Source of the DNA: Tricholomella constricta
Lineage: Eukaryota > Basidiomycota > Agaricomycetes > Agaricales > Lyophyllaceae
Length of the DNA stretch: 64,000 bases
NCBI GenBank assembly: GCA_013368375.1
Contig: JAACJP010000001.1
Location: 1,116,001 to 1,180,000, forward strand
Direction of reading: 5' to 3'
Shown: positions 12,701 through 35,667 of the stretch, piece after piece
Numbering within the stretch: the stretch's first letter is position 1
How the letters are laid out: the number at the start of each line of letters is the position of its first letter
The notes under the pieces: model-generated
The model's input: only the letters and a program-made list of their open reading frames with translations
What the model was told of the DNA's origin: nothing
The model's database searches: none
Program-made: the position numbers and the translations under genes

Positions 12701-13601
12701 CATACAGCCGTTCTAAGCCCTGCTCCAGTGTCTCCTTTGACTTCATTGTCGCTTCCCACAGTATGTCTATTCCAGACTCTGCTGCTGGCCACTCGATCTG
12801 AATCTTCTCCCGGCGGCCCACTCGAGTGGGTTCTATGATGGCCAGTGTTCTGTTCACCGTCAGGACCAATGGTGTGTGGTCTGCCCAGGCACAGTCAGGG
12901 TCTTCAGGCGGCTCCAGGACTTTCAGTTCAAGGACAAGGGCCAGTGCACGTAGGGAGACTATAGCATAGTCGACGACTGCTCGACCGTTGGGCTGGAATG
13001 ATGTGAACCGGCCTGGCGTGTGGGCCTCTGTAGCTGTGCCATTCAAGATGCACAGAGCAAAGTCCTGCACCCATGACAGTACTTGTCGCCCTCTCGTGTT
13101 GGTCATACTGTCGCATGAGTTGCGTGGTGGGTGAAGGGGGGAGCCTGATAGGGAGGCAGTCCGTGCGTTCAGGTCGCCCATAACAATCACTGGTTTTGAG
13201 GATGCCGTGCATACGGCCAGCACCTCCCTCAGGCGTATTTCAGGGCTCACGTCTGTCCACCCCTCCCATCTGCTTGTTGAAGGCAATATATATGCCCCCA
13301 CAATATAGCAGTTGCCCATGTCTAGGACTATAATGTCTCCAACGGACAAGTGCACTGCGACCTCTGCTTTTATACCCTTCCGTACAAGAGCCATTACTCC
13401 CCCACCCCACCTCTGCCAGCTTGCTCTCCGAGGGCGTGACACAGCGATCATATAGTATTCTGGAGGCACTGGGGTGCTGCTCTCCTCTTCTGGCCATAGA
13501 TGTGTCTCCTGGAGGAGCACTACATCATACTGCCCAATATCCTTATTGAATTCCGGGCTGAGGATTTTTGCTGCATAGTTACCAAATATATTCCAGCTCA
13601 T
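9744..13601 (-). CDS. LINE ORF2: APE endonuclease - RNase H - reverse transcriptase - zinc knuckle
   Basis: A 1,285-residue ORF that nicks target DNA and copies the LINE RNA into the nick. Residues 1-240 form an exonuclease/endonuclease/phosphatase domain, with MSWNIFGN, VVLLQETHLW, VMGDLNART, VDYAIVS and the catalytic WADHTPLVL. Residues of about 305-460 form a type 1 RNase H, with VYTDGSCLNN, NNRGEIFAVILALLE, RVTTDSELVI and NEWGDAADRLAKEG, giving a complete D-E-D-D set. Residues of about 600-1000 form the reverse transcriptase, with IGIPKPEKD, the motif A aspartate in YIDLKNAFPW, LLTGDPGSPGNWN, and motif C EQADDIMIA (QADD in place of YADD). Near the C-terminus CRLCRDGVEDAVHALLVC is a CCHC-like knuckle. 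RNase H upstream of RT is unusual; known LINE RNase H domains lie after RT. No internal stops are present. Confidence 0.9.
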   Translation of the reverse strand: MSWNIFGNYAAKILSPEFNKDIGQYDVVLLQETHLWPEEESSTPVPPEYYMIAVSRPRRASWQRWGGGVMALVRKGIKAEVAVHLSVGDIIVLDMGNCYIVGAYILPSTSRWEGWTDVSPEIRLREVLAVCTASSKPVIVMGDLNARTASLSGSPLHPPRNSCDSMTNTRGRQVLSWVQDFALCILNGTATEAHTPGRFTSFQPNGRAVVDYAIVSLRALALVLELKVLEPPEDPDCAWADHTPLVLTVNRTLAIIEPTRVGRREKIQIEWPAAESGIDILWEATMKSKETLEQGLERLYGKTYHWTQEVQVYTDGSCLNNGKRNAAAGSGTFWGLHSHKNRAQRAPGPGPQTNNRGEIFAVILALLEADPRKSLRVTTDSELVIREACYWAPLHDNMGWDRPNGDLLHDMVKLLAARQAPTRFVWIKGHSGNEWGDAADRLAKEGARLPEVGNYRHLVDAPWAATGAPPHEGTMDAGKVSTALPETPTARPVEPAIEVLDDPDRRDGLSHRGREKTRKLQQSMRNALLDCNGPGEFWRLIRKWTDARPAETEVSLDALTNELQARMNAPLEMPTSFNREQLALNKVLAAALPTYGVDTTPDGLFSRAFGEEEIAWGKNHVRTHTIDSATGADGYTYRDIMTIPNTKIAELLNACLNEMEIPSRWLASLVIGIPKPEKDRKAAENYRLIVLECCLLKFFTLLIDRRVRDYAERHAIIPETQNGFREGYRTNNNPFILRTMTEKAKAEGTPLYIAYIDLKNAFPWTDRETLWLKLNTWGISGPVVNWLRKLYGSMTYMVRLDGDLSNRFQCNLGLLTGDPGSPGNWNIYLSDFVVSHFPGDMLLHNVYVSQLEQADDIMIATPCPVAFQGKLTDMAAWAADNGCETQLEKCVFSIAGPKPKQPYAFYLGSHRLKEVRDFKYVGVHFRTFSDNMFVEHYRVNTEKARRMANMCLGVDRFVGDMPAWESRTLYVARVDPYLTSAAEVILDTIAPHWEGLEKVQCYYLRRMLRIHARSVKAVLFSETGLLPIRYRRVVLALGFLKHVVCLPEDRLVWSAMAESFKLARMGHGSWVTDLKLVLANLPDPILWVLPEGSMDADMVDSLIDEVKASADRWVDGVVLSSARTRDLLAGRMEMVEGRLVKKVIAFRHYLRVKIPKHRRALTHVVLCCHALAVERLRWAERRRPAVARELRVCRLCRDGVEDAVHALLVCAHAPVQRYRRVFYAQVDAALPGFRSRFTDAEAMMRDLLGQRVTVALLAKFCYDVLEVFYAEPMLIPAGLMLIPDT

Positions 13602-13663
13602 AATTGTAAACGAACTAGTAGAATTGTTTATACTTGGTGCAGCGTTGTCGCTCTCCTCAGCCC

Positions 13664-16138: not shown

Positions 16139-16206
16139 CGCCGAGCCCAGATTCTCTGCAGGCCCGAGGCTGAGTAGTATATTGTTGGGCGCAGCAGACG
16201 GTTTCC

Positions 16207-16210
16207 CCGT
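16207..16210. repeat. target-site duplication (left copy), CCGT
   Basis: CCGT immediately precedes the 5' LTR and recurs at 28848-28851 immediately after the 3' LTR. The 4-bp direct repeat fits LTR-retrotransposon integration and fixes both LTR ends, TG at 16211 and CA at 28847. Confidence 0.75.
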
Positions 16211-17246
16211 TGATGAGCACCGTCCAACGCTGTACACTGAACCAACCCATTCTACGGATATCAACCGTTGCGCCACGACGAACACGGTCCCAAATGCGAC
16301 CAAAGCGCTAAACCGACCGACCGACAATACGACCGACCGACCGACAATACGACCAAACGACCGACGCACCGACCAAGAGACAAAGTAACTTGGAACGCCA
16401 GTTCTCCTCTCTGGGCGCGCGGAGCACGGAACGCCGTATAACCTGTCAACGACCGCGCACGTTTGTATGCCAAGGTCTCAACCCGGCAACAACCAAACCC
16501 GATTTGAAATAATCCTAGGAAACGCCGTTGCCTAGCTAGCCGCAGGAAGGATCCGGCCGTACCACGGAGCTCCGCACCCAAGAGCCACTACCGATCGCAA
16601 AGCCATCACCGATCATACATCCGACCCGACGCCTCGAGCCGATCAAAAGCCCCTTTGCCGAGCCAAAGAGCGCCACACTCTCTAAAAAGCGTCGCGCGGT
16701 ACCAAGCTTGGCGGCGCTTCCCCCAAATAAACCAGTAAAACACCTGCCTCGCCGGCTCGCGCGAGGCAAGTCGGTCGTATTGTATAAAAACATACCCATG
16801 TATTACCTACTTGCCCCAGTGAATTACAGCCCGTATTTTCCCTCACTCTCAGAGTTAATAGCTCAAAACCGTCGTCTCTGTCGTCTCCGCATCGTTCTCA
16901 TCGTATAAACCGTCGCCACCGTCGTAAACCTCGTAACCGCCGTCTCCGTCGCCTCGTAACCGTCGCCCGAACCCGTGAGTTCTCCGTATTCGTCTCGTTC
17001 GTCTCGTTGTCGCACAACCAACACGAAAGTCGTGTTGCCGACCCGTTCCACCTGTGAACGATCGTATTCTATCGCGCCGCCGTCGGTTCGACTAATTACA
17101 AGTCAGATCGTCTTTACTTTCGCCGAACCACCACTTTCAAACCCTGCACACTCGCGTGTTTGGGAACTTTTAACACTTCTCGCCCCCCATAGTTGTTAGT
17201 TGTTTTGTTGTTGTGTACAGCACCTACAGGCCTTCTAGCTCTATCA
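16211..17246 (+). repeat. 5' LTR of the Ty3-type element
   Basis: A 1,036-bp direct repeat matching 27812-28847 except at two positions. It begins TGATGAGC and ends CTCTATCA. A tandem block of GACC/GACAATAC units lies near 16313-16365. A TATAAAA box is at 16783-16789, so the R region probably starts about 30 bp downstream, near 16815. Confidence 0.93.
16783..16789 (+). promoter_or_regulatory. TATA box of the LTR promoter
   Basis: TATAAAA lies about 430 bp before gag coding begins and is repeated in the 3' LTR at about 28384-28390. It is the only good TATA box in the LTR, so it is the likely core promoter for the genomic RNA. This is inference from sequence only. Confidence 0.55.
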
Positions 17247-20035
17247 TTCTGGAGCCCACCGCGAGGGTTTTAAAAGCCACCGCCGAACACGCAACCTCAT
17301 TCCTCTTGTTCATAAAAACCTACGACTCGTCGACCATTCCGCCCGCAACCCGACAAGAAGCTAAAGCCCGAACCCTCCGTGCCGAAATTCGCGCTGCTCT
17401 CGGACAAGTCGACACAGACTCAGAATCGCTCTCCCCGTTCTTCCGCTCAGTAACCCCACACCGCGCGATCCATAACAACCTCAGCCCGCTCTTCTATAGC
17501 CCTTCGTCGACACTACCGTCGCCTACCCCGACCGATCAAACACCGCTCCCCGAACCAACCGCGCAACCCGACCTAGCTTTCGACCCCTTTGCGTCGGAAC
17601 CTCCTACCACCGATCAAGGAGTTGAATTTAGACTCCCCTATCTATCGCCCGCGACCCCAGAAATCTCAGATTCTTCTTCACCGTCGTATTCCCCCTCCCC
17701 GTCCCCTATCCCGAAACCAATACCATCTATCATGGCACAACCACCAATCATTATAAAGCCGATGCCCGCACGCGGACAAAGCTCGGCGCCGACGTTCGTA
17801 CCCGAACGCGCGCGTGAACTGCGCCGATATTTTTCGGACTTAAATCATCTCTTCATCGAGTGTAACGTCGTAGATGAGCAAGAAAAGAAAACGCACACTA
17901 CGCGATACACCGACATCGATACCGCGGATCTGTGGGAGCAACTTGACGAATTCGCAGTCGGTACCACATACGACGACTGGCGAAAAGCGATAATGGCGCT
18001 TTACCCAGGCGCAAGCGAAGAAAGAAAGTATTCAATGGCCGACCTCGACTACCTGATCAGGGAACGACACCGACTCGGGATCCAGTCGAATAGTGACCTC
18101 GGGGAATATTACCGACAGTTCCTTTCTGTTACCCAGTTCCTTGTCAGCAAAAACCGACTTTCGATAAACGAACGCGACCGCCAATTCCGTCGCGCGTTCC
18201 AGTCCGATCTATGGTCAAAGATCCATCGCAGGCTCGAGATCCTAAACCCGAACCACCATCCCGACGACCCCTACGCCACGGAAACCGTTCGCGCTGCGGC
18301 GGAACATATCCTCCATGGAACAAACGCCGGCCAACGGCAGGAAGCGCCATCGGGCGCGCCCCCACAAATTACGATCGCGCCAAGCGGGTCGTTAACGGGC
18401 GCGACCAAGTCGCCTAACACGGGACAGCCCCTCAAGTTGGAAGAGCTCTACGAAAGAATCAACCTGTTGGAACAACATATCCAACGCTTAGGACAAGACA
18501 AAGGAGGCGACGGCGGCCGACCGAGTCAGTCACCTAATGACAACTGCCACTTCTGCGGTGGTGAAGGACATTATATTCCTAACTGTCCCATACATCAAAC
18601 ATACGCGACCGAAGGACGCTGCCGACGAACCGACGACAACAAGATAGGCCTACCAAGCGGCGCGCGCATACCGGCGGGAACTCCAGGCCGATACATAAAG
18701 GACAAGTTAGACGAGTGGCACAGACGCAACCCCGGCCAAATGGCGACAGGACAGCTATCAGCGAACGCGAACCCGACCGAGAGCATGATGTTGGAAATAC
18801 TACAGTTTAACGACGTCACCGACCATAACTTGAAAATCGAGGATCGCATGATCGTGTTAGAACGAGAACTCAACACCCTGCGCGCAAGGAAAGAGGTGTT
18901 CGACGGCGTAGAACTTATTAGCCGCGCACCGCAAAAGCGACCCGTCACGGTCGAAACCGTTCAAGACGCCGACCAACCAAGGATCGCACCAGTCAACAAA
19001 TCAGCGCCCGCGTCGCAGCCCGTCTCGGACGCGACGAAAAGCCAGGCCAAGGCTCCCCCGCCGCCGTCCAACATACCTCTGATCCCCAGTACCACGACTG
19101 ACGCCACAGGCAATGCCCACGACCAGACTCCAGTACACCCTTTCTCTAACATTCCTGAGAACCGATACATCCCCCCTACCACGCGAAACTTAGCCGCCAC
19201 GGAGAAGGCGAAAGCCGACAGCGCGTATCGCACACAAGCGCCCATTACAGATCCGACCAAATCAACGACTCTATTCGAACGCGCACTCGACGCCACCATA
19301 CCGGTCACAGTTCGAGAACTCTGCGGGGTAGCGCCAGAGGTTCGCGGAAAGTTTAGGGAAGCTAATACACCGAAGCGTATCGTCGCCGGCAACCTCACAA
19401 CGGTATACCAAGAAGTCCCCACGTCGGCGTTCATTGAGGAACTCGACGCACTACCTTGCGAATCCAACAGCGACAACGCGACGCCACCGCCCGGAGCGCT
19501 AGTCACCGGCGACATCTACGACACGTATTACCAGACACTACTACCCGGCGAGCATCCGGACCGACTGATCGTCGCAATGGAATCGCACGCACTCAGGTCG
19601 ATCATGATAATGGTCGACGCGAGAGAACAGATAGAAAGCATCGTCGACAGCGGGTGCCAGATCATAGCCATGTCGGAAGAAGTTTGCCATGGACTAGGGG
19701 TCAAATACGACCCAACTATAGTGCTGCAGATGCAATCAGCGAATGGAACAACCGACCCGTCGCTCGGTCTAGCACGAAACGTACCTTGTACGATAGGAGA
19801 GGTCACGCTCTACCTCCAAATGCACGTCATTCGCAATCCCGCATACGATATACTCCTCGGCCGCCCGTTCGACGTACTTACTTGCTCTAACGTGAAAACG
19901 AGATCCGCCGACGATACGATCATAACCATCACCGACCCGAACACTCGAGAGGTCATCGCGATACCGACCTTCGCGCGCGGACAACGTCGCCGCCCCAAGA
20001 CCGACGTAAATTTTCGTATACTCTCGAGGAAATAA
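17213..20035 (+). CDS. gag: Gag polyprotein with zinc knuckle and aspartic protease
   Basis: The frame is open for 940 codons. The ATG at 17213 lies within the LTR before the primer-binding site, so the ATG at 17732 (MAQPPIIIKPMPARG) is a more conventional start; the stretch between is Pro/Ser-rich but looks coding. A capsid-like helical region follows (FVPERARELRRYFSDLNHLF to AAEHIL). A CCHC knuckle, CHFCGGEGHYIPNC, lies near residue 444 of the long form. The protease lies near residue 810 with the active-site triplet in IVDSGCQIIAMSEEV (DSG in place of DTG) and the later segment YDILLGRPFDV. The protein should form particles and package the RNA. The stop at 20033-20035 lies just beyond a slippery heptamer, so pol is probably made by frameshifting. 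Confidence 0.88.
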   Translation: MYSTYRPSSSIILEPTARVLKATAEHATSFLLFIKTYDSSTIPPATRQEAKARTLRAEIRAALGQVDTDSESLSPFFRSVTPHRAIHNNLSPLFYSPSSTLPSPTPTDQTPLPEPTAQPDLAFDPFASEPPTTDQGVEFRLPYLSPATPEISDSSSPSYSPSPSPIPKPIPSIMAQPPIIIKPMPARGQSSAPTFVPERARELRRYFSDLNHLFIECNVVDEQEKKTHTTRYTDIDTADLWEQLDEFAVGTTYDDWRKAIMALYPGASEERKYSMADLDYLIRERHRLGIQSNSDLGEYYRQFLSVTQFLVSKNRLSINERDRQFRRAFQSDLWSKIHRRLEILNPNHHPDDPYATETVRAAAEHILHGTNAGQRQEAPSGAPPQITIAPSGSLTGATKSPNTGQPLKLEELYERINLLEQHIQRLGQDKGGDGGRPSQSPNDNCHFCGGEGHYIPNCPIHQTYATEGRCRRTDDNKIGLPSGARIPAGTPGRYIKDKLDEWHRRNPGQMATGQLSANANPTESMMLEILQFNDVTDHNLKIEDRMIVLERELNTLRARKEVFDGVELISRAPQKRPVTVETVQDADQPRIAPVNKSAPASQPVSDATKSQAKAPPPPSNIPLIPSTTTDATGNAHDQTPVHPFSNIPENRYIPPTTRNLAATEKAKADSAYRTQAPITDPTKSTTLFERALDATIPVTVRELCGVAPEVRGKFREANTPKRIVAGNLTTVYQEVPTSAFIEELDALPCESNSDNATPPPGALVTGDIYDTYYQTLLPGEHPDRLIVAMESHALRSIMIMVDAREQIESIVDSGCQIIAMSEEVCHGLGVKYDPTIVLQMQSANGTTDPSLGLARNVPCTIGEVTLYLQMHVIRNPAYDILLGRPFDVLTCSNVKTRSADDTIITITDPNTREVIAIPTFARGQRRRPKTDVNFRILSRK
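17250..17265 (+). other. primer-binding site
   Basis: TGGAGCCCACCGCGAG begins three bases after the 5' LTR. TGG is the complement of a tRNA CCA 3' end, and the following bases should pair with the tRNA acceptor and T arm. I cannot name the tRNA without a tRNA set. Confidence 0.6.
20008..20014 (+). promoter_or_regulatory. candidate -1 ribosomal frameshift heptamer A AAT TTT
   Basis: In the gag frame the codons read GTA AAT TTT, so the heptamer A_AAT_TTT fits the X_XXY_YYZ rule exactly. A -1 slip here continues as TCG TAT ACT CTC GAG GAA ATA AGT in the pol frame, which is open from upstream of this point to 21906. The gag stop is 19 nt downstream. I did not fold the downstream RNA for a pseudoknot. 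Confidence 0.6.
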
Positions 20036-21628
20036 GTCGAGATCACGGCGATCTTGCACTCCTCCTCGAGTACGACCCACTAAGCTATACCCCGACTGTC
20101 CTTTCTTTCTGTGAACTACCGACCGAATTTAATAGCGACGCCACCTACGACGCGCAACTAGCCTCACTCTACGTCGCGGCATCCGAACTAACCGCACCAG
20201 CAATCGCCGACCAATCCGATAATACCAACTCTAACCCTCAAAAACGAACGACCCTCTGCACTATTTTACCGCACAACGAGCGCCATAGTGGACGCCACAC
20301 CCAATCCCTGACCAACGCCGCCACCGACGCCTTCGTGGTGAAAATCAAAGGCGTACAAACCAAAAAGAAGTACAAACCAGTAGCGCAAAAAGTACGATCG
20401 ATCATAGCAAGTTGTCCCGACCACTTCCGCATCGAGCGCAAAATATTGGGCGACCCTCTCGCCAACATGCCGACTCTGCTCCCCAACCCGCCACCTTTCC
20501 AACCCACCGGCCGCTACACTCTAGAGCGAAAAGACGACTTAGACCGTGAACACCCAGACTTCTTAACGCCCTCCGAACGAGCAATTATGCACGACCTCAT
20601 GTGTAAGCAGAATCTCGCTTTCGCATGGGACGACTCCGAACGCGGTAGTTTTCGATCGGATTTCTTTCCCCCTATCGATATCCCGGTCGTCGCACACACA
20701 CCCTGGATCGAACGAAATATCCCCATACCGCCTGGCATCTACGATGAAGTTTGCGACATTATCAAAACTAAACTCGCCGCTGGCGTTTACGAACCGTCCA
20801 ACTCCAGCTACCGATCGCGTTGGTTTTGCACTCTAAAGAAAAATGGCAAGTTCCGCCTCGTCCACAGCCTCGAACCGCTCAACCGAGTAACTATCCGACA
20901 CTCGGGGGTCACTCCGATACCAGACCATGTCGCCGAACAATTCGCCGGTCGCATTTGTGGCGCAATGTTGGACCTGTTTGTCGGCTACGACGAACGGCTA
21001 ATCGCACCATCGTCGCGCGACCTTACCACTTTCCAAACACCTTTCGGCGCGTTACGCCTAGTCACCTTACCTATGGGCTGGACCAACTCCGTCCCAATCT
21101 TCCACGACGACGTCACTCACATCCTACAACCGGAGATCCCGGACTATACACTACCTTATATCGACGACGCTGCTATAAAGGGACCAGCAACTTGGTACCC
21201 CGACCCGGACACAGGATTGCCGAAAACACACCCCGACAATGCCGATGTGCGATTCGCGATCTGGGAGTTCTTCAACAACGTCAACCGAATCCTCCAGCGC
21301 ATGAAGTACTGCGGCGGCACCTTCTCCGGCAAGAAGCTGATTTTATGCGCACCACAATTTAAAGTCCTCGGACACGTCTGCACGCCCGACGGTCGCATAC
21401 CCGACGCGGACCGACTCGCTTTACTGCGTAATTGGAAGTCGTGCGCCACCCTATCAGAGTTACGCGCGTTTTTAGGAACAGTCGGAGTACTAAGGATATT
21501 CGTCAAAAACTTTGCTCATCGCGCACACCACCTCGTAAAACTAACTCGCAAGGACGCAGTCTTCGAATTCGGCCCCGACCAGATCGCAGCACAGCGTGAC
21601 ATCGTCGAGGCGATCGCAGAAGCGAAAA
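20014..21628 (+). CDS. pol: Pol, reverse transcriptase part (frame -1 relative to gag)
   Basis: This is the reverse transcriptase of the element. The frame is open from the gag overlap. A linker (KFSYTLEEISRDHGDLALLL) leads to the RT core with SRWFCTLKKNGKFRLVHSLE, FQTPFGALRLVTLPMGWTNS and the catalytic motif C LPYIDDAAIKGP. The thumb/connection segment follows (SELRAFLGTVGVLRIFVKNF). The frame runs on without meaning to 21906. Coding continuity passes to another frame at an A4 tract (21625-21628), where RDIVEAIAEAK must be joined to PLVPIDYASDDPVILAVDTS. One base too many is present relative to a continuous pol frame. Confidence 0.85.
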
Positions 21629-23779
21629 CCCCTCGTACCCATCGACTACGCCTCGGACGACCCCGTCATCCTGGCCGTCGACACTTCACACATAGCAGTC
21701 GGATTCTACCTCTGTCAAGCCGACCCCGTCGATCGGAAACGACGCAGATACAATCGGTTCGGTTCCATTACACTGAACGACCGCGAATCACGGTTCTCTC
21801 AACCAAAACTCGAATTTTACGGCCTATTTCGGGCGCTTGGCGCTTTACGCCTGTACGTTATAGGCGTCCGCAACTTGGTCGTCGAAGTCGACGCGCGCTA
21901 CATTAAAGGAATGCTCTCCAACCCCGACATCCAGCCGTCAGCTTCCATAAACAGGTGGATCGTATCTGTCCTCATGTTCCACTTCGAACTTGTCCATGTT
22001 AAAGGCACGTTCCATGGACCCGACGGTTTGTCCCGGCGCCCACGACAACCCGACGATCCAGCCGACAACTACGACGCAGAAGAAGCCGACTTCGAAGATT
22101 GGGTCGACCGAATGCAAGGACTCATGCACATTATTCAACCGCTGCCACAGCCGCCGTCGCCATTACACATATGCCAGATCTTCGCTATGGCTCAGGTCTC
22201 AAGTAAGGAGGAGATGGGGGCAGTATACACGGACGCGGTACCACCAGACTCAACGACTCACGAACTCGCAACCGATTCCCCACGACAACCCAGAATCCGT
22301 ACCGACGACGATACAGGAATAACCGACCCAAATGCGAATTCGACCGACATGTCATACGACGACGTACCCAGGACCGACGCCGCTAAAGCCCAAGACCAAC
22401 GCATAGATGCGGTTAGACAATGGTTGACCAACCTCGAACGGCCAGAAGGCATGTCCGACGATCAGTACGCCACCTTCATTCGATACGCCACCGGGTTCTT
22501 CCTAGACGGAACACGACTCTGGAGAAGAGATAGCCAAGGCGCACATAAACTAGTCGCCCGCCCCAATGCACGATTAGAGATTCTGCGATCCGTCCACGAC
22601 AACCTCGGACATAAGCGCTTCTACGCGACACGCGCAACCTTGCTCGAACGCTTCTGGTGGCCTAATGTTCGGGCCGACGTCGTGTGGTTCGTACAGACAT
22701 GTCACATATGCCAGATCCAGCAAACGACCAAGGTCCTGATCCCCCCGGTCGTTGCGACACCCGCGCCACTGTTTGCAAAAATGTACATCGACACTATGCA
22801 CCTACCGCCGTCGAATGGTTTCAAATACATTGTCCAAGGTCGTTGCTCCTTGATTCACTTTCCTGAATGGCGCGCGCTCCGAAAGGAAAACAGTCGCACC
22901 CTCGGCGATTGGATGTACGAAGACATCATCTGCCGGTGGGGCGGACTGCGCGAAATCGTAACCGACAACGGCCCAGCCTTCATCAAAGCCGCCGAACACC
23001 TCACAAAGAAATACCACATACACAACATTCGGATCTCAGGTTACAACTCTAGAGCCAACGGGCTAGTCGAGCGATCCCACTTCGACGTCCGGCAATCTCT
23101 TTTCAAAGCCGCCGACGGAATCGAAAATAAATGGTCGCAAGCCGCCTACTCCGTTTTCTGGGCGGAACGCGTCACAATCCGCAAACGAATGGGATGTTCC
23201 CCCTACTACGCTGCGACAGGCACGCAGCCCCTCCTGCCACTCGATATCGTCGAAGCCACGTACCTCCAACCGCCACCCGACTCAATACTGTCCTCCACCG
23301 ACCTCTTGACACGTCGCGCGATCGCCCTACAAAAACGAACGACCGACCTAGAGCGACTGCATTCAGACGTATACGCGGCGCGACGACAAGCGGCGATTCG
23401 CTTTGAGCTTCAACACGCCAGAACCTTGCGCGACTATAACTTTAAACGCGGAGACCTCATCCTCATGCGCAACACGAAAATCGAGAAGTCGCTCAACCGC
23501 AAAATGCGATCTAGATACCTAGGTCCGCTCGTTGTGATCTCACGCAACCGTGGAGGCGCCTACATCCTCTGCGAATTGGATGGCACCGTCTTACACCGGC
23601 CTGTAGCAGCGTTCCGACTCACCCCCTACTTCGCGCGAAATAATATTCTCCTACCCGATAACGCGCTGGACATAGACACCAAACGACTCCGAGAACTAGA
23701 GGCGACGACGATCACCGACAATGAAGACCGACCCGAAGTCGTAAGCGACGACTCGGAGTCGGAAGAAGAGCAGAACTGA
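21629..23779 (+). CDS. pol: Pol, RNase H and integrase part (shifted by one nucleotide)
   Basis: The frame opens just after the A4/C4 tract. RNase H motifs are VILAVDTSHIAVGFYLCQ, LEFYGLFRALGAL, VEVDARYIKGML and HVKGTFHGPDGLSRR. The integrase zinc-binding HHCC module is at about 22590-22720 (HDNLGHKRFYATR and CHICQIQQ). The catalytic D-D-E residues lie in YIDTMHL, VTDNGPAF and SRANGLVERSH. A GPY/F-type C-terminal module follows (KMRSRYLGPLVVISRNRGGA). I see no chromodomain. The stop is at 23777-23779. It is functional only if the one-nucleotide shift is bypassed or is a sequencing error. Confidence 0.85.
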   Translation, partial: PLVPIDYASDDPVILAVDTSHIAVGFYLCQADPVDRKRRRYNRFGSITLNDRESRFSQPKLEFYGLFRALGALRLYVIGVRNLVVEVDARYIKGMLSNPDIQPSASINRWIVSVLMFHFELVHVKGTFHGPDGLSRRPRQPDDPADNYDAEEADFEDWVDRMQGLMHIIQPLPQPPSPLHICQIFAMAQVSSKEEMGAVYTDAVPPDSTTHELATDSPRQPRIRTDDDTGITDPNANSTDMSYDDVPRTDAAKAQDQRIDAVRQWLTNLERPEGMSDDQYATFIRYATGFFLDGTRLWRRDSQGAHKLVARPNARLEILRSVHDNLGHKRFYATRATLLERFWWPNVRADVVWFVQTCHICQIQQTTKVLIPPVVATPAPLFAKMYIDTMHLPPSNGFKYIVQGRCSLIHFPEWRALRKENSRTLGDWMYEDIICRWGGLREIVTDNGPAFIKAAEHLTKKYHIHNIRISGYNSRANGLVERSHFDVRQSLFKAADGIENKWSQAAYSVFWAERVTIRKRMGCSPYYAATGTQPLLPLDIVEATYLQPPPDSILSSTDLLTRRAIALQKRTTDLERLHSDVYAARRQAAIRFELQHARTLRDYNFKRGDLILMRNTKIEKSLNRKMRSRYLGPLVVISRNRGGAYILCELDGTVLHRPVAAFRLTPYFARNNILLPDNALDIDTKRLRELEATTITDNEDRPEVVSDDSESEEEQN
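22200..22214 (+). repeat. internal polypurine-tract copy (candidate central PPT)
   Basis: The 15-mer CAAGTAAGGAGGAGA is identical to the sequence directly preceding the 3' LTR (27797-27811) and to a third copy at 26166-26180. This copy lies in pol between RNase H and integrase, where central PPTs occur in Ty1 and lentiviruses. Function as a second plus-strand primer is inferred. Confidence 0.5.
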
Positions 23780-24132
23780 TCGACATTCCGCGAAACCATA
23801 TACCCTCCCTTTTAATCAGCACCCTTCTCACCGACACACACCGTTCGACCGACCGAATATACCGACGACCTATGCTTTTTTTTCAGTACCGACCTATTAC
23901 CGACCACCGATCGGGTTTACGATTCACTATGTTCAGACAACAAAACTCCACTCAATCACTCTTTCCGACTCTGTCGCCACTTCGCACAAACATTGCCGAA
24001 CGCCAATATATATTGCATGGTGGTCCATTAGGACCACCCCAGCACAGAACCACAACAAAATAATAAACACGGCCGAGCGCGCGACCAAGATACCAAGCGC
24101 GCCCAAGCCGACCGACACTCCGCGACGCTCGC
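23780..24132. other. spacer between pol and antisense gene A
   Basis: About 350 bases between the pol stop and the stop codon of antisense gene A. It should hold the 3' ends of both transcripts. Motifs of the type accgaccgaata are frequent. No ORF of interest is present. Confidence 0.5.
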
Positions 24133-26001
24133 TCACCCCATTACGACATCGCCACCCTCGATCCCGTCGCCGCCCTCCTCGACTCCGTCGCTCTCGCCGT
24201 CGCCCTCGGCATCTTCGTCATCGGTACTCACCGCGCTCCCTTCACTGGAGTCGGACTCGCCCGCCGCCTCCTCGACCAACTCCGAGCGCCGCTCCCGAAG
24301 CAGCCTCAGCGCGTCCACGGTGCCTTCCACTTGCTGGTAAATCTGTCGCAGCGACCAGCGCGTTATCTCCTGCTGGGACTCCAGAACCTGCGCTTGCTGA
24401 ACCAAGGCCCGAAGAAAGGCGTTGCGCGAGAAAAGCGCGCGGTCCACGTCGGCGAGGTCGAAGCTGTCGATAATCGCGGTCGAGGCCATGTACCCCAGAC
24501 CGTCTAGGTCCTCGTTACGGAGCAGGGCCTCCGCCTGAGGCAAAGCGCCCTGATGCAAGAAACCCGCGCCCATGCCCGCAGAGCCGGCGACCTGAATCAT
24601 CGCAAGGTGGTGGGTGGCCGCCGCCAGCTCGCGTTCGCGCTCCCGGGGATCCGCCAGGAAGGGCTGAGGGGACCGGCGCAGCGAGGGCGCGGGCGCAGTG
24701 GCGGGCTTCTCCTCCTCGACATCCTCGACGATAGGGCGCGATATGTTTCGGCGCCGCGATCGCGAACCAGAGGCCCTCGGAACGACAAGGGGGACGCCGT
24801 CGCGCGTCGTCTCACACTTCTTGGCGTGGATCTTGCAGAGCGCACAAGGACTGACGCCAGGCTTCTGCAGGCAGTCGACGCCGGAGTCCACGCAACGATC
24901 GCACTAGAAAAGGGTCAGCGCCGACGACCGCACGAGCCCAGCCGATAACCTACCGCTACATCGCGCACCAAGTGGTGAGGGCACTCCTTCTTGAAGTCCT
25001 CGAGGCGCCCGAGCCACTTGTCGGTCGTGCGCCGCTTCCGTTTGCCTTTCCCCGACTCCGCCTCCGGGACCTCCACTAACGACCCTTCCCCGTCATCCGC
25101 GACGTCGCGCTTGCGCTTCCGACTCGAAGCCGTCACCTCGTCGGACCCAGTGGCAGCGGGCGTTGCACCTACCAAGCTAGTTAGGGGCAGACCACTCACA
25201 GCGCTAAAGATAGGCCCCGATCGGAAGGCGGACTCACGCGTACGAAGCGATCGCGAAGCGGACGGGGCAGTCTGTCCAAAAAAAAACATTAAGCAATCGA
25301 CAGAAGACAAAATCGCGTGAGATACGCACGTCGGCCGCAGCGTCTTTACCAGCACGCGACCCGCCACCGACCGACATACGAGGCACAAAAACGGGAGGCC
25401 GCGAGGACTTGCCTTTCCCCTTGGGCGACGGCGCCGCAGGAACGCCGGACGATGCCCCCCCCACGACCGGCGGCGGGATTGCGCCCACACTACCGCGCCT
25501 CTTCTCCGCCTCCACCGCCAACTCCGTGTCGCGCACTTCGACGTCGCCAACATCCGGACGGGGACCCTGCTCGACTGGCGGTTCGCCAGATACGACCGGT
25601 GGCGCATTTCCGGCGCCTCGAGATGTGCCCGATTGAAGATGTCGTTCACGGCGCCGGCGGGTGTACTCGTCCTCAAGAACGCACAAGACCAAGTCGGTCA
25701 CCTACATACCAAAAGTCAGAAACGGACGCACCTCGGGCTCCAGATCCGCGAATTTTTCCGACCACTCCCGGTCGTCCTTGATGCGTGCCCATATTTGGGA
25801 CAACGCCTCCTGCTCCTCCCGCCATTCCAAACGCCCGGGGCCCGCCTCTTGTTTCCGAAGCGCGGTCACGCCGTCCCGTATGTCCTCGAGCGCCTCGAAG
25901 CGCTCTTCGCGAGTGGCGTCGTCGGGAAGTTGACACCATCGAATGTAGTCGGTGGTCAGATACCGGAGGACGCGCTTGAAGTCAGACACGACGGTGGCCA
26001 T
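24133..26001 (-). CDS. antisense accessory gene A: Zn2Cys6-like cluster protein (four exons)
   Basis: A spliced gene on the strand opposite to gag-pol, reconstructed from splice signals: exon 1 26001-25732 (90 codons), exon 2 25701-25330, exon 3 25271-24954, exon 4 24903-24133. All junctions are phase 0 with donors GTGCGT, GTGCGT and GTAGGT and acceptors ending in AG. The predicted protein is about 576 residues. Exon 1 encodes an acidic helical domain ending EWSEKFADLEPE. Exons 2-3 are low-complexity, with a basic stretch RKRKRD and then LEDFKKECPHHLVRDVA. Exon 4 begins CDRCVDSGVDC and CALCKIHAKKC, giving spacing C-x2-C-x6-C-x8-C-x2-C-x6-C, exactly a Zn2Cys6 pattern. Unlike classical Zn2Cys6 factors, the basic residues lie between the fifth and sixth cysteines. 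A leucine-rich helical region (LADVDRALFSRNAFLRALVQ) and an acidic tail follow. A DNA-binding regulatory role is inferred only. Confidence 0.7.
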
Positions 26002-26139
26002 GATGGTTGAAAAGGGAGGGAACCGAAAAAGGGACAGTCACTCTAAACAAACCAGGACGCGCCGTCAAATTCTGTTGCACCGCCACCACCATCTCACGCC
26101 ACACACGCGCCAGTTCTAGAATTTTCTCGACCGGTCTCC

Positions 26140-26180
26140 GGACCGACTGAGGGCAGTCGGCATTTCAAGTAAGGAGGAGA
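26140..26180 (+). repeat. hairpin plus polypurine tract, internal copy
   Basis: This 41-bp block matches 27771-27811 at 39 of 41 positions. It contains a perfect 7-bp stem (CCGACTG, loop AGGG, CAGTCGG) followed by ATTTCAAGTAAGGAGGAGA. It lies about 140 bp upstream of the start codon of antisense gene A, as the 3' copy lies upstream of gene B. It marks a module duplication. Confidence 0.7.
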
Positions 26181-26396
26181 CACGACCTACAGGTTGAGCG
26201 GCGGCCGACGCCAGCAACCGACGCCACCAATAAAAGAACCGACCAAAACGAAGAACCGACTTACGCCACCTAGAACGAATAGTTCGAATTATAACAGAAC
26301 GACCCAATTTTAGGGCCCGCACAACAAAACAGGTATATACGGCATACGCGACCAATAATGAGCGCAACCCGACCACAAAACACGACAAACCTAGAG
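26181..26396. other. spacer downstream of antisense gene B
   Basis: About 215 bases between the internal PPT copy and the stop codon of gene B. It is A/C-rich on the + strand with several accgac motifs. No ORF is supported. Confidence 0.4.
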
Positions 26397-27651
26397 TCAA
26401 AACGACGAACCCTCGCCACCATCGTCGCATACGCCACCACCGACAACGCTTCCACTACCGCTACCCCCACCGCTCGGAGCACCCATTACAGACGCACCAA
26501 CTAACTCGACGCGCCGGGCCTGAAGCAAGTCAAGGGCCGACGACGTAGACACGACCTGCTCGTAAAGCTGACGGGCCGACGAACGCATAATCTCTTGGCG
26601 CGATTCAAGGACTTGAATTTCCTGGACCAAAGTACGCAAGAAAACGGTGCGCGCCGATAGCGCCCGATCTATATCCGCAAGACCGAACCGCGAAATACGG
26701 AGGAAGTCCTCAGGGCGAAACACCGGACCTTGATAGAGGAGACCCGCGCCTCGGTCCACCGAACCCGCAGAACGAGTCACGACAAGGCGCTGAGCAGTTC
26801 TCGCCAGGTCGGGCGAACGGACCTCGACGAACAACGGAGGTGGCGCGCACGCGTCGCAAGAGCGCCCCTCTACTAAGCATGGCACAAACTGGTGCGGAGC
26901 CGGCGGAAACGACCCCACCTCACTCGTCTCACATTGCTTCGACTGAATCTCGCAAACCGCACAAGCGTCAATCCCGTTGCGCTGAACACAGTCCAAAGCG
27001 TAGCCCGCACAACGGTCGCACTAGCCAACAAATGAGAGGAAGAACAAGATTGCACGAGAACCGATGACTTACCGCTTCGCTACGAGTGTAATGCTCCGGG
27101 TACTCCTCTTTAAACTCCTCAAGACGCTCCAGCCACAAATCGTGTCGCCTCCGCTGCGCCGCCAATACCGACTCCCCGGAGATCTCGACTACAGACTCTT
27201 CTTCGTCCCCGTCCCCAACCGAGGAAGCACACATGCGATCCCGAACGACAGGCCCTGCCTGTTCTCCAGCAGAGGCGGCGCGAGCAGGCTCCCGAATGAC
27301 CGCCCGTCGGTGAGGGTAGTCAGACTACCAGCTAGCGTGTTAATCCTCGGGAACGATCAAGCCAACGAAGAGCGAACTTACACTCGGCTGTAGCCCCGCG
27401 AACCGTCTGGACCATTCAGGGTCAGACGCGACCGAAGACCATACGTCGAGCAAAGCATATTCTTCGTCGCGCCACGCCCAGCGCCAGGGTTCAGCTGCTG
27501 GTGACCTAAGCACTTCGACGCCGTTTAACAAATATTGCAGCACGCGAGTACGCTCGTAACGAGGCGAGTCGTCCGACAGCGATTGCCATTCCTCCCAGTC
27601 TCGTCCCAAATTGCGGAGAATACGACGGAGATCGACAGGAGGTCCCGACAT
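26397..27651 (-). CDS. antisense accessory gene B: Zn2Cys6-like cluster protein (three exons), paralogue of gene A
   Basis: The gene is reconstructed as exon 1 27651-27382 (exactly 90 codons, as in gene A), exon 2 27324-27073, exon 3 27020-26397. Donors are GTAAGT and GTAAGT, and all junctions are phase 0. The predicted protein is 381 residues. Exon 1 ends EWSRRFAGLQPS, matching gene A. Exon 2 ends LERLEEFKEEYPEHYTRSEA, matching LEDFKKECPHHLVRDVA of gene A. Exon 3 begins CDRCAGYALDC and CAVCEIQSKQC with the same C-x2-C-x6-C-x8-C-x2-C-x6-C spacing. The helical part GLADIDRALSARTVFLRTLV is the counterpart of the gene A region. A TATATATA run at about 27683-27692 could be its TATA box. Identical exon phases, matching exon 1 length and the shared domain order argue that both genes are real and duplicated. 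Confidence 0.7.
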
Positions 27652-27770
27652 AACGATGGGTAAAACAAACCAAGAACCAGGATATATATATGTCGCCAAC
27701 GCGTCGGCACCGCCACTCGCTCCTATGTCCGCCCCTTTTTCCAAGGAGAACGCCCCCTGACCAACGCGCG

Positions 27771-27811
27771 GGACCGACTGAGGACAGTCGGTATTTCAAG
27801 TAAGGAGGAGA
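27771..27811 (+). promoter_or_regulatory. 3' polypurine tract with preceding hairpin
   Basis: AAGTAAGGAGGAGA ends exactly at the first base of the 3' LTR (27812), the expected place for the plus-strand primer of reverse transcription. A 7-bp stem-loop (CCGACTG and CAGTCGG) lies 6 bp upstream of the tract. Confidence 0.8.
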
Positions 27812-28847
27812 TGATGAGCACCGTCCAACGCTGTACACTGAACCAACCCATTCTACGGATATCAACCGTTGCGCCACGACGAACACGGTCCCAAATGCGA
27901 CCAAAGCGCTAAACCGACCGACCGACAATACGACCGACCGACCGACAATACGACCAAACGACCGACGCACCGACCAAGAGACAAAGTAACTTGGAACGCC
28001 AGTTCTCCTCTCTGGGCGCGCGGAGCACGGAACGCCGTATAACCTGTCAACGACCGCGCACGTTTGTATGCCAAGGTCTCAACCCGGCAACAACCAAACC
28101 CGATTTGAAATAATCCTAGGAAACGCCGTTGCCTAGCTAGCCGCAGGAAGGATCCGGCCGTACCACGGAGCTCCGCACCCAAGAGCCACTACCGATCGCA
28201 AAGCCATCACCGATCATACATCCGACCCGACGCCTCGAGCCGATCAAAAGCCCCTTTGCCGAGCCAAAGAGCGCCACACTCTCTAAAAAGCGTCGCGCGG
28301 TACCAAGCTTGGCGGCGCTTCCCCCAAATAAACCAGTAAAACACCTGCCTCGCCGGCTCGCGCGAGGCAAGTCGGTCGTATTGTATAAAAACATACCCAT
28401 GTATTACCTACTTGCCCCAGTGAATTACAGCCCGTATTTTCCCTCACTCTCAGAGTTAATAGCTCAAAACCGTCGTCTCTGTCGTCTCCGCATCGTTCTC
28501 ATCGTATAAACCGTCGCCACCGTCGTAAACCTCGTAACCGCCGTCTCCGTCGCCTCGTAACCGTCGCCCGAACCCGTGAGTTCTCCGTATTCGTCTCGTT
28601 CGTCTCGTTGTCGCACAACCAACACGAAAGTCGTGTTGCCGACCCGTTCCACCTGTGAACGATCATATTCTATCGCGCCGCCGTCGGTTCGACTAATTAC
28701 AAGTCGGATCGTCTTTACTTTCGCCGAACCACCACTTTCAAACCCTGCACACTCGCGTGTTTGGGAACTTTTAACACTTCTCGCCCCCCATAGTTGTTAG
28801 TTGTTTTGTTGTTGTGTACAGCACCTACAGGCCTTCTAGCTCTATCA
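27812..28847 (+). repeat. 3' LTR of the Ty3-type element
   Basis: A direct repeat of 16211-17246, with about two substitutions in 1,036 bp. It starts TGATGAGC, ends CTCTATCA, and is followed by the CCGT target duplication (28848-28851). Confidence 0.93.
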
Positions 28848-28851
28848 CCGT

Positions 28852-32221: not shown

Positions 32222-32360
32222 GGTCAATAGAGTCGTCTTCAACACTGTGTGTCGAGACCTGAGGCTTATCTTACATCGTAATTCTACAGGTTACGGGCCC
32301 CGCTCGCGCTTTGCCTAAAATCGACAAACCCCAGACGAACTCAAATACTTTACCCACAAC

Positions 32361-32837
32361 ATGTCTAACACTACAAACAGCGTTACAAATACCCCGTTGT
32401 TCCCAGACGACAAAAAGTTTGATAGATTGAACTTTGTTGGCTTCAAAACTCGGATCCTCATAGTCGCGCGTGTGCGTGGCGCACTCGGATACCTCTTTGG
32501 GGACATCAAGAAACCCAAAGAGGAGACGGACGAGGATAAATCCCTCCTACCAGAAGCCAACGCTATCCACCTTCCAACAAAGTGGGTGTCGAAATACCCC
32601 TCTGCTGAAGAGTGGGACACACGCGATGCCTGGATGCTCGCATTAATCACATTCAATACCAAGAATCCTATCGGACTTGGGATCAAGTTAGACGATACTG
32701 GTGCTGACGCTTGGGCATCACTCACCGAGACATATGGTGAAGTCTCGGACTTCGCAGCCGCTGACGCTGAGCGCGTGCTTCGGACCACTTCTCTCACCGA
32801 AGGGGCAGATCTCCACCTTCACATTGCAGACCTCTGA
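32361..32837 (+). pseudogene. copia Gag, N-terminal part ending at a premature TGA
   Basis: The frame starts MSNTTNSVTNTPLFPDDKKF and runs through the copia Gag helical core (SEVSDFAAADAE-type region, DAWASLTETYGEVSDF). It stops at TGA (32835-32837). The same frame then continues with typical Gag sequence (TKWKNATEKGAPIPDKTFRT), so the stop is a mutation and not the natural end. Confidence 0.75.
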
Positions 32838-34235
32838 ACGAAGTGGAAGAATGCCACGGAGAAAGGCGCACCAATCCCTGACAAAACCTTCCGTACCATC
32901 CTGCTCGGTTCACTGCCTGCATCATGGAACCTGTTAGTATCTACTCTGTATACCTGCAAAACGTCGGCCGAAACCATTACTCGCCTCAACTTGCACTGGG
33001 ACAGACTCCGGTTCCAGGCAAACCCGGCCGGCGCCACCACAACGGCCATGGTGGTCGTGGCGCCCACGCAGAAACCAAAGCTCCTGTGCACCAACACAGA
33101 GAATTGTGGACAGACAGGACATACAATCGAAAATTGCTACTGGAAGGGCGGAGGGAAGGAGGGTGTTGCCCACCTTCGGCTGTGCAGTTGCATTGCCTTC
33201 GCGAAAATTCCTGAGGAGCTGGTGACATCGAAGCTAGACCCCAGGTCGGTGAAGTACATCATGGTCGGCTACTCATCGAGCGGATACAAACTCTTCGATC
33301 AAGGCACCCGATTGATCATCACCAGCTGTGATGTCATCTTTGTCAAGGGCACTAGACATCGCGCACTCACAAACCACAGCGATGACGGCCTCCTCGGTGA
33401 CAACGCGCCTGCTGCAAACCCCACCGTACCTGGCCTTATCCTCCCCAACTCGCAACCTGTAGCACCACGCCTCCGCATCACCGATGGGCCACTCTATGAC
33501 ACCCCGAACACCGGAACTGATGCCGCGGGCGTGGAGGAGATTGACCACCGCCCTATCGCGCACCGCCGCGTGCCACGGCATGCCAAAGCCACAGATGCCA
33601 GCATTGCCACGAAGGAGACTCTAGCGACGGAGGAGGCCGCACGTGTCGCTGGTGAAGAGTGGGCGCAGGAAGAGACGGATGGACCACAAGCTTTCCTCAC
33701 TGCACTCGATGCCACCGCTTCTTCTGATGAGTACCTCCTGAAACACTATGGGGAAGCAATGCGGCGTCCAGACTTGTGGGCAGCACCCATGGAAGTGGAG
33801 CTCACTGTCCTCCAAGAACGCGGTGTCTTCAAGCTCGTTCCCGAGGCGTCCGTTCCCACGAGCAAGAAGATCATCAATTGCATGTGGGTATATGCACATA
33901 AATACGACGCCGAGGGGAACATTGTAAAGCAGAAAGCGAGGCTGTTGTGAAGGGGTTCACGCAGGTACCGGGAGAAGATTATAGCGAGACGTACGCCGCG
34001 GTCGTACGGCTCGAATCGATCCGCATTTGCGCTGCCATAGCAGCCGCCCTCGGACTACACGTTTGGCAGGCTGACTTTGTTTCGGCCTATCTCAACAGCA
34101 TATGCGAGTACACGGTCTATATGCGCCTACCGCCGGGGTTTAAGGGGGGAGTAGGAATGGTATGCTTACTTCTTAAAACCCTTTACGGTATGATGCAGGG
34201 GTCACGGCTCCTCGCTCCACATCTTCTTGCACCAC
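32838..34235 (+). pseudogene. copia Gag end, integrase C-terminus and N-terminal RT, broken
   Basis: After the premature stop the Gag frame continues to a CCHC-like knuckle region (CGQTGHTIENCYW). It is joined directly to the post-integrase segment VKYIMVGYSSSGYKLFD, so protease and integrase core are deleted. The RT start is clear (AAPMEVELTVLQERGVFKLV, NCMWVYAHKYDAEGN). A frame break near 33943-33950 separates QKARLL from KGFTQVPGEDYSETYAAVV. RT ends after LKTLYGMMQGS, some 35 bp before the inverted LTR. Confidence 0.78.
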
Positions 34236-34568
34236 TGTAGAATTACGAAGTAAGATAAGCTACAGGTAATAATTAGTAAGAGCTTCTTTTAGAAATGGGT
34301 AAATAAGTGGCTCACCCTCAGGTCTCGACACACAGTGTTGAAGACGACTGAGGGGGCAGTACAGTGAATACGAAATGTATGTAGGGTGAAAATATATAAG
34401 GTTCACGGTAAAGACTAGCAAATACCGTGAACGATTGACGAGTCTGAGCCACAATGCCCTGTGCCATGGCGTAAGGTATAACCGGTCCCAATCGGGCAAT
34501 TCGCCGGATGAGAAAGTGGTGGGCGCGTTGAGCGCGCCGCGTCGGTCTTGGTAAGTCCCCGACCAACA
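34236..34568 (-). repeat. copia LTR (3'), inverted
   Basis: The reverse complement begins TGTTGGTC and ends TTCTACA like the + strand LTR at 31889-32221, with scattered differences. It is preceded on the - strand by a purine tract CCCGGGGAG, the expected PPT, and by the end of RNase H. Confidence 0.78.
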
Positions 34569-34590
34569 CTCCCCGGGACGGGAAGACCGA

Positions 34591-35667
34591 TCACTTGAGT
34601 TTTAAGAGCTCGGTGAAATGCTCGTGGAGGACGCATGGTAGCGGCTTGGTGAAGATGTCGGCGATGTTTTCAGTGGATGGGATATGGATAAGTTCAATGT
34701 CTCCGTCACGGACACGCTCGCGGATATAGTGGTGTCGTATATCGATATGCTTTGCGCGAGGGTGTCCCTTCGTAGTCTGGGTGAGTGCGATAGCTGAGGT
34801 GTTATCTCCGTGGAGGGTAGCGGGTAGTGATTGTGGTAGATTGAGGAAGTTATGCATCCAGAGGGCTTGCTGTGTCGCGCGGGTCATGGCCATATACTCG
34901 GCCTCGGTGGTGGAGAGGGCGACAGTCGCCTGCCGTTTCGACAACCACGAAACGGGACCCCCGGCCATCATAAATACGTACGCACCGGTGGAGCGCCAAG
35001 TATCGAAGTCTCCCCCGAAATCTGCATCAACGTATCCGGTGGGTCTAACTCCCTCCTTTCCACGTGTGTAGGTAATCCGGTAGTCGAGTGTCCCTTTTAG
35101 GTAGGCAAGGACGTGTAACATAGCTTTCCAGTGTCCTGGGCCGGGGTTTGTCTGGAAGCGGGCTAAGAGGCCGACTGCATATGAAATATCTGGGCATGTT
35201 GAGACTTGCGCCCACATGAGTGATCCGAGAAGAGCACGATACGGTTTGTCCTTCATGAAGTCCTTTTCAGCAATAGTTTTGGGCGATAGTGATTCGTCGA
35301 GACGGATACCGGTGGGCAGGGGTGTGGCTTGTGGATTGCAATCCTGTAGTCCGAAGCGCTCGAGGACGCGCTCAAGGTAGGCGCGTTGGGAAAGAGAGAT
35401 CGCACCTGTGGTAGGATCGCGATCGACGCGCATTCTTAGCAGGAATTTTACCTCCCCCAAGTCCTTCATTTCGAAGCACTCCCCCAACTCCTTCTTAGCC
35501 TTTTCAGCTCCCTTCTCCGTCGATGATAGCCCAAAGATGTCATCGCTGAATGTACTCGTAATCGTCACCTCGCCTCCTTCATCTCTCGTCCTCACGCAAC
35601 TGTCTGCCCTCGACGCCCTATATCCGAGGTCGCGGTACGCTTTATCGAGGGTATGCCACCAGGTAGG
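34591..35667 (-). CDS. copia RT C-terminal half and RNase H (fragment)
   Basis: The frame can be read from the break at about 35667 (WWHTLDKAYRDLGYRASRAD), continuing to TSTFSDDIFGLSSTEKG, FEMKDLGEVKFLL, PYRALLGSLMWAQVSTCPD and the RNase H segments GYVDADFGGDFDTWRSTGAY, LSTTEAEYMAMTRATQQALW and HIPSTENIADIFTKPLP. It ends at 34591 (TELLKLK). It is intact in itself but has no start, since the upstream half lies inverted at 31889-34235. The right edge abuts the terminal repeat of the KDZ transposon. Confidence 0.85.
   Translation of the reverse strand, partial: PTWWHTLDKAYRDLGYRASRADSCVRTRDEGGEVTITSTFSDDIFGLSSTEKGAEKAKKELGECFEMKDLGEVKFLLRMRVDRDPTTGAISLSQRAYLERVLERFGLQDCNPQATPLPTGIRLDESLSPKTIAEKDFMKDKPYRALLGSLMWAQVSTCPDISYAVGLLARFQTNPGPGHWKAMLHVLAYLKGTLDYRITYTRGKEGVRPTGYVDADFGGDFDTWRSTGAYVFMMAGGPVSWLSKRQATVALSTTEAEYMAMTRATQQALWMHNFLNLPQSLPATLHGDNTSAIALTQTTKGHPRAKHIDIRHHYIRERVRDGDIELIHIPSTENIADIFTKPLPCVLHEHFTELLKLK

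Follow-up and report, generated by a model that had tools for sequence, protein, structure and literature searches.

Paired spliced antisense genes, each preceded by a dyad, in a Ty3-type retrotransposon of Tricholomella constricta: possible regulators of their own element

The stretch of DNA analysed here (the window) covers 64,000 nt of the forward strand of contig JAACJP010000001.1, positions 1,116,001–1,180,000, in the 44.1-Mb genome of the fungus Tricholomella constricta (assembly GCA_013368375.1), the one genome used in this study. A Ty3-type long terminal repeat (LTR) retrotransposon of 12.6 kb spans nucleotides 16211–28847 of the window. It has two LTRs of 1036 bp each with 2 mismatches between them, a target duplication (CCGT at both flanks) and a polypurine tract, which together characterize LTR retrotransposons. 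Its plus-strand domains, protease (PF13975/PF13650), RNase H (PF17917) and integrase (PF17921), stand in the Ty3 order. An earlier note on this DNA, made from the sequence alone, had called the element a young Ty3 retrotransposon, and the LTRs, flanks and domain order bear this out. The region assigned to reverse transcriptase (Table 1) matches no Pfam family at E ≤ 1; YIDD and LPMG-type motifs were found there by eye, which we take to be signs of reverse transcriptase. The pol frame is interrupted near 21.6 kb in the window copy; many other copies have frames of up to ~1295 codons.

Between pol and the 3' LTR, the minus strand encodes two paralogous genes: A has four exons for a product of 566 aa, and B has three exons for one of 381 aa. 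The start of B at 27651, the stop of A at 24133, the first exons of exactly 90 codons and the CDRC exon with its cysteine spacing are as the earlier note had described them. It had also recognized the two genes as related, including their helical regions. Aligned with each other, A and B share 42% identity in exon 1 (91 residues) and 40% around the cysteine cluster and the helical part (257 columns), and on this sequence resemblance they are paralogues. First exons of 90 codons are seen in 34 of the 44 splice models from all fetched loci (the rest have 69–94 codons, and one 214).

The introns of A and B are 50–60 nt long and in phase 0. The good donors and acceptors noticed earlier are present in four introns of the window copy (GT donors, YAG acceptors), but intron 1 of gene A lacks a good acceptor at the usual length. 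The candidates are a 30-nt intron (TAG) and a 60-nt intron (GAG). The 60-nt intron makes exon 2 start with DEYTRRRRER, as in gene A of loci L013, L017, L027 and L032, where YAG acceptors are used. The splice search left four gene starts without a model, three of which are gene A of L009 (the window copy), L010 and L012, and one gene start without a start codon. The GAG-only acceptor was seen at the homologous site in L009, and L010 and L012 presumably share it. In the first intron of 19 distinct B genes, a possible branch point was read by eye as CTAAC in 8 and as TTAAC or CTGAC in the rest, sequences that we assume to represent the branch-point motif.

Table 1. Positions of the features of the Ty3-type element within the window.
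Feature	Position	Strand	Remarks
Gene B exon 1	27382..27651	-	90 codons, helical domain
Gene B exon 2	27073..27324	-	
Gene B exon 3	26397..27020	-	six-cysteine cluster and long helix
Gene A exon 1	25732..26001	-	90 codons
Gene A exon 2	25330..25671	-	start uncertain, weak GAG acceptor
Gene A exon 3	24954..25271	-	basic, resembling a nuclear localization signal (KRKR)
Gene A exon 4	24133..24903	-	six-cysteine cluster, basic SRSRRR stretch, helical region
Dyad CCGACTG-N4-CAGTCGG before gene B	27774..27791		
Dyad CCGACTG-N4-CAGTCGG before gene A	26143..26160		
Terminal polypurine tract AAGTAAGGAGGAGA	27798..27811	+	
Internal polypurine tract copy before gene A	26167..26180	+	
Third polypurine tract copy inside pol	22201..22214	+	
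TATA-like run, gene B promoter	27682..27692	-	by eye
5' LTR (TG...CA)	16211..17246	+	1036 bp
3' LTR	27812..28847	+	2 mismatches to 5' LTR
Target duplication CCGT	16207..16210 (left); 28848..28851 (right)		4 bp
Gag/protease open frame	17213..20035	+	weak zinc-knuckle match, aspartyl protease
Reverse-transcriptase region	20335..21906	+	by eye
RNase H and integrase frame	21596..23779	+	

Exon 1 is predicted to fold into a five-helix domain (mean predicted local distance difference test score (pLDDT) 91.6, predicted template modelling score 0.82), and structure comparison found no convincing relative of it in the PDB. The cysteine exons start with CDRC and show the spacing C-x2-C-x6-C-x8-C-x2-C-x6-C. 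The six cysteines are invariant in all 19 aligned last exons, which were picked for having the cluster. The consensus of fungal Zn2Cys6 domains is C-x2-C-x6-C-x5-12-C-x2-C-x6-8-C, and the spacing in A and B fits it. The prediction for the last exon of B has a mean pLDDT of 59.7 overall, and includes a confident helix of 66 residues (residues 114–179, pLDDT of the block 80–98). In gene A, the KRKR and RxRR stretches are invariant in 5 of 5 aligned proteins. In L029 and L030, exon 1 of the gene at the B position leads into the helical part, and no cysteine cluster is present.

The genome search gave 147 matches to the cysteine exon of B and 195 to that of A. Eleven of the 147 B rows match only from query residue 57–61, in stop-free frames of 212–230 codons, as expected of a B without the cluster. 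A list of A/B places was merged by hand from 82 of the 147 B rows and 76 of the 195 A matches, among the matches listed; second pieces and repeats were excluded, and at least two genes are still entered twice. The pol set holds 61 of 62 rows (the 62nd is a second piece), from a search in which 61 of 1016 candidates were scored. Behind these pol copies, both genes are found antisense in 44, one gene in 12 and neither in 5, so that 56 of the 61 are followed by at least one of them. Whether the genes recur antisense in Ty3 copies had been raised by the earlier note, and within this one genome they do. Among the 158 merged A/B places, 106 follow a pol copy of this set and 52 do not; five pairs (10 places) of the latter adjoin pol ends that were unscored in the first search (C1:892155, C61:149583, C33:456311, C42:98357 and C5:535523). 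The final tally is 116 places beside a pol copy and 42 unplaced. Same-strand A/B matches lie downstream of four pol copies; three were assigned by position to neighbouring elements, and the fourth is C19. The view that A and B belong to the element is supported by these data.

Some copies are rearranged. L010/L017 (C2:304853-318180) and L018 (C61:137839-150180) are elements paired tail to tail, and in each pair one B gene has its dyad and tract gone, with an LTR end abutting the promoter. Autointegration or LTR recombination could be the source of this arrangement. At C42:78021-80666, a database protein of T. constricta is a fusion of an A gene with a protease/zinc-knuckle segment from a different retroelement, and the junction is also present in the genome at that place.

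Both A and B evolve under selection as proteins. The ratio of nonsynonymous to synonymous divergence (dN/dS) between copies, a check proposed beforehand, was taken from pairs with dS of 0.05–1.2, which are not independent of one another, in 25 hand-chosen regions and 8 search-chosen loci. Pol has a median of 0.068 (170 of 210 pairs); the corresponding medians are 0.138 for the last exon of A (37 of 171), 0.162 for exon 1 of A (54 of 190), 0.311 for the last exon of B (254 of 300) and 0.398 for exon 1 of B (293 of 406), that is, 0.14–0.40 for A and B. Because the regions were chosen and only open last exons of >150 codons (50 of 64 match clusters) were used, these ratios are biased downward and the constraint is somewhat overstated. 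Among 19 distinct B genes, the difference is 0.084, 0.091 and 0.173 at codon positions 1, 2 and 3, and 0.207 in introns. The low dN/dS and the introns diverging more than any codon position indicate that A and B encode selected proteins. Under random substitution at 15–25%, 0.7–6% of A and 2.5–9% of B last exons would be expected to stay open. Ten A last exons differ from the window copy at 46.5–47.7% of nucleotides, yet are open over 246–247 codons.

A 41-bp repeat before each gene consists of the dyad CCGACTG-N4-CAGTCGG and the polypurine tract, the latter being the sequence that ends at the 3' LTR. Two tandem copies of one unit, made up of helical exon-1 domain, cysteine-cluster exon and long-helix domain with a promoter containing the dyad and tract, lie antisense to gag-pol. 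A tandem duplication that included both gene and promoter is the probable origin of the internal tract. When up to 2 mismatches are allowed, the window contains 2 dyad matches, both at the antisense promoters and none in the LTRs; shuffled windows have 0.31 matches on average, and 3 of 100 reach 2. Throughout the genome, CYGACTG-N4-CAGTCRG occurs at 132 sites, not all of which were matched to genes, versus 1 site for the reversed control pattern.

The search at gene starts accepted variant dyads, including those with an incomplete right arm. Here, the dyad or a variant lies within 330 bp upstream of 50 of the 56 gene starts, 127–173 bp before the ATG; it is perfect on both sides in 42 and departs on one side in 8. 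The 56 starts are not independent, because loci overlap (L001/L009, L002/L012, and L004 with L010 and L017). The six misses come from L008/L018 and L010/L017 (two copies, each counted twice), a mis-set start in L011 and a variant dyad in L030. Gene A of L027 and of L031 is preceded by CTGACTG-N4-CAGTCAG, a two-sided change that preserves the symmetry. The retention of both copies of the dyad in lineages with saturated divergence of A speaks for a function; roles as DNA and as RNA are both possible. The tract before gene A is absent in L031. The third copy of the tract sits between RNase H and integrase and resembles a central polypurine tract; across the 21 pol sequences compared it varies by no more than one base.

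One-sided changes of the dyad were noticed by eye upstream of gene A in L020–L023, L026 and L029, and of gene B in L031. They produce G-U pairs in RNA of the antisense strand and mismatches in the sense strand, and represent few independent events.

In most comparisons A and B follow pol, but at least two breaks are clear. Identity was profiled along six pairs of elements. L009 compared with L013 and L011 shows 98–100% in pol, 64–87% in the A/B region (with L011, 89% in the window that follows pol) and 93–96% in the LTR. L014 and L022 show 98–100% in pol, 58–97% in A/B and 98–99% in the LTR (86% in the last window). The remaining three pairs add no further case. L011 and L013 are almost the same along their whole length except for one window of 79% directly behind pol. 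The contrast between L014 and L021 is small (pol 88–100%, A/B 80–96%, LTR region 83–94%), and L009 and L017, whose profile does not include the LTR, show 93–100% in pol and 67–96% in A/B.

The same breaks are seen in synonymous divergence. Among pairs with pol dS below 0.05, dS exceeds 0.3 in 4 of 23 for the last exon of A, 7 of 23 for exon 1 of A, 6 of 20 for the last exon of B and 6 of 27 for exon 1 of B. Two groups account for all of these pairs: L009/L010/L012 against L011/L013, and L014/L015/L016/L018 against L022. In the 48 pairs whose pol dS is above 0.02, the ratio of dS to that of pol has a median of 11.8 for A and 1.8 for B. High dS in A/B means an older ancestry or a local excess of mutation. 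The simplest reading of the sequences would be that A/B blocks were exchanged between lineages, for example by template switching. Because most pairs with near-identical pol also have similar A/B, exchange is claimed for the two groups, and general exchange of A/B was set aside. Matched pairing of A with B was also considered: their distances correlate at 0.83 (55 pairs, not independent), but each also correlates with pol (0.80 for A, 0.87 for B), which undercuts it.

Tentatively, and at somewhat less than even confidence, we regard A and B as a duplicated antisense accessory gene encoding nuclear coiled-coil regulators that act on the dyads of their own element. Host RNA polymerase II would transcribe both genes from their internal promoters. 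Introns could be retained in antisense genes, as these are opposite in direction to the genomic RNA used for copying. The proteins would enter the nucleus by means of the basic stretches in A and form A-A or A-B pairs by way of the long C-terminal helix. A might be the binding subunit, contacting the dyads 127–173 bp before the antisense starts through its cysteine cluster, and B the partner; a B without the cluster could be a modulating partner. In this way A and B may regulate their own amounts and, next to the 3' LTR and the polypurine tract, govern the activity of the element and its siblings. We lean slightly toward a net effect of self-restraint rather than escape from host silencing.

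The earlier note had seen in A and B a pair of DNA-binding regulators, perhaps controlling LTR transcription or integration. The dyad found at each antisense promoter now provides a candidate target. LTR transcription would be controlled indirectly, because the dyads of the window are at the antisense promoters and none is in the LTRs. Several observations weigh against regulators that bind the dyad as DNA. Pfam Zn_clus (PF00172) does not call A or B, with 1 of 19 exons reaching E=0.041, and in a PF00172 search of the genome none of the 22 matches over the cut-off falls on the listed A/B places. Basic residues between cysteines 2 and 3 of Zn2Cys6 domains touch DNA; this loop has no K or R in 16 of the 19 clusters and has them in L027, L029 and L031. 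The cluster-less B tells in the same direction, as do the near constancy of the dyad while A diverges to synonymous saturation, a pattern that shows no protein-site covariation, the 5 of 61 pol copies without either gene, and the 14 of 64 last-exon match clusters in the fetched loci that are broken, split or cut by locus ends. Furthermore, the terminal dyad as RNA forms an 8-bp hairpin (-12.8 kcal/mol, z -2.9) directly beside the polypurine tract, and might therefore serve reverse transcription instead.

The regulator reading can be extended, although we consider the extension unlikely as a whole. The A/B block could be a self-encoded, exchangeable control module in which paired antisense proteins act on shared dyads and old, divergent types are kept by negative frequency-dependent selection. 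Rare A/B types would escape the restraint set by common ones, and pol and LTR would stay nearly uniform. The two breaks between A/B and pol suggest that a different A/B type may be advantageous, and the exchange part of the extension rests on these two independent comparisons. Because the dyad is near constant, any specificity would lie in protein-protein contacts. Immunity through cognate dyads was considered and is unsupported, as the dyad hardly varies between A/B types.

Another possibility, which seems rather unlikely, is anti-silencing: A and B may bind the motifs of the element and remove or block host silencing marks, as does VANC, from a different class of transposable element and a different host. 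VANC of Arabidopsis VANDAL elements is likewise encoded by the element and acts on motifs in its own non-coding sequence, as described in the available part of PMC5735166. The 132 genomic sites of the non-coding motif and the strong A/B differences between some near-identical elements could be read in this way. However, the motif is nearly constant across lineages, whereas VANC targets vary considerably between related transposable elements (PMC5735166, same part). A and B could also be accessories of RNA or of the particle, with the cysteine cluster binding the hairpin by the polypurine tract and aiding export, packaging, plus-strand priming or nuclear import. The adjoining hairpin, the threefold presence of the tract and the departure of the cluster from the standard DNA-binding type would suit such a role, but both dyads lie at similar distances from the antisense starts, as promoter elements would, and by inspection the one-sided variants (L020–L023, L026, L029, L031 B and L033) break pairing in the sense strand. 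We therefore hold this role to be doubtful.

It is improbable that the antisense RNA is the active part, silencing the sense RNA through double strands, with the proteins incidental. Antisense transcripts of retroelements can act so, which is discussed for plants in PMC7264820 (seen in part), but here the proteins are constrained and intron positions are conserved in both genes. Equally improbable is that A and B tether the pre-integration complex to chromatin: the proteins look nuclear, with basic stretches in A, and are encoded beside the LTR end, but the dyads of the window are located at antisense promoters. That A and B were captured from the host and are carried along without serving the element is hardly credible despite their eukaryotic structure with introns and the 42 of 158 places unplaced beside pol, given at least one gene behind 56 of 61 pol copies and frames still open at synonymous saturation.

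Antisense genes in Ty3 elements are already known; the dyad with its tract, the breaks between A/B and pol and the cluster-less B lineage are new. The earlier note knew of no described fungal family with this arrangement. Within the literature searched, this stands for the paired, spliced form, and not for antisense genes as such: Boty-like elements of Botrytis cinerea carry the antisense gene brtn (Zhao et al. 2011, as cited in PMC7264820, PMC8365987 and PMC4227169). Boty is thus also a fungal Ty3-type element with an additional antisense gene, but one gene is described, and paired paralogous spliced genes and a dyad are unmentioned in the available parts of these papers; the comparison is by description only. 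Three protein searches of A/B, with ~8000 candidates scored in each, returned no Botrytis protein among the matches listed. In the literature on antisense genes with zinc clusters, introns or extra open reading frames (ORFs) in Ty3 elements, seen in part and with most subscription journals outside its coverage, no paired, spliced, dyad-bearing arrangement was found.

The plant Ty3 elements Retand (TRP28), Grande (gene23) and RIRE2 resemble the present element in having antisense ORFs between pol and the 3' LTR. These are present in most copies, and their function is unknown, with a nuclear or DNA-binding role suggested (PMC11963269, PMC7264820). The TRP28 domain of Retand (PF04195) has no match in A or B, and introns are not mentioned for the plant ORFs in the accessible text of PMC11963269 or PMC7264820. 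HBZ of human T-cell leukaemia virus 1 is also an antisense gene near the 3' LTR, whose product is a regulatory factor modulating sense expression. In the descriptions available, HBZ is one bZIP protein with its promoter in the 3' LTR, whereas the T. constricta element has two cysteine-cluster proteins with internal promoters; a Pfam search found no bZIP domain in A or B. Fungal Zn2Cys6 proteins (PF00172) share the cysteine spacing and a long helix further on, but A and B are uncalled by Pfam, mostly lack the basic loop and have the extra exon-1 domain. In Ty1, p22/p18 provides self-encoded control of copy number with subfamily-specific restriction, which offers a model for diversification of the genes; p22 differs in being a capsid-domain fragment that acts on capsids (PMC12530519, in the part available).

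The function of antisense accessory genes in Ty3 elements is unknown (PMC7264820, as far as available), and dozens of copies in one genome make the question directly testable, through the candidate target site and through elements with near-identical pol but different A/B. The element also illustrates how genes with introns could persist in a retroelement: they lie on the strand opposite to the one reproduced as genomic RNA. If the control module is real, it would be comparable in logic to the immunity region of a phage.

Other retroelements were recognized by eye in the window. At 9744–16369, the LTR element is seemingly inserted into a non-LTR retrotransposon, which has a frame of 1285 codons and a frame of 901 codons that runs into the LTR. 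Fragments of a Copia-like element are seen on both strands at 32315–35595.

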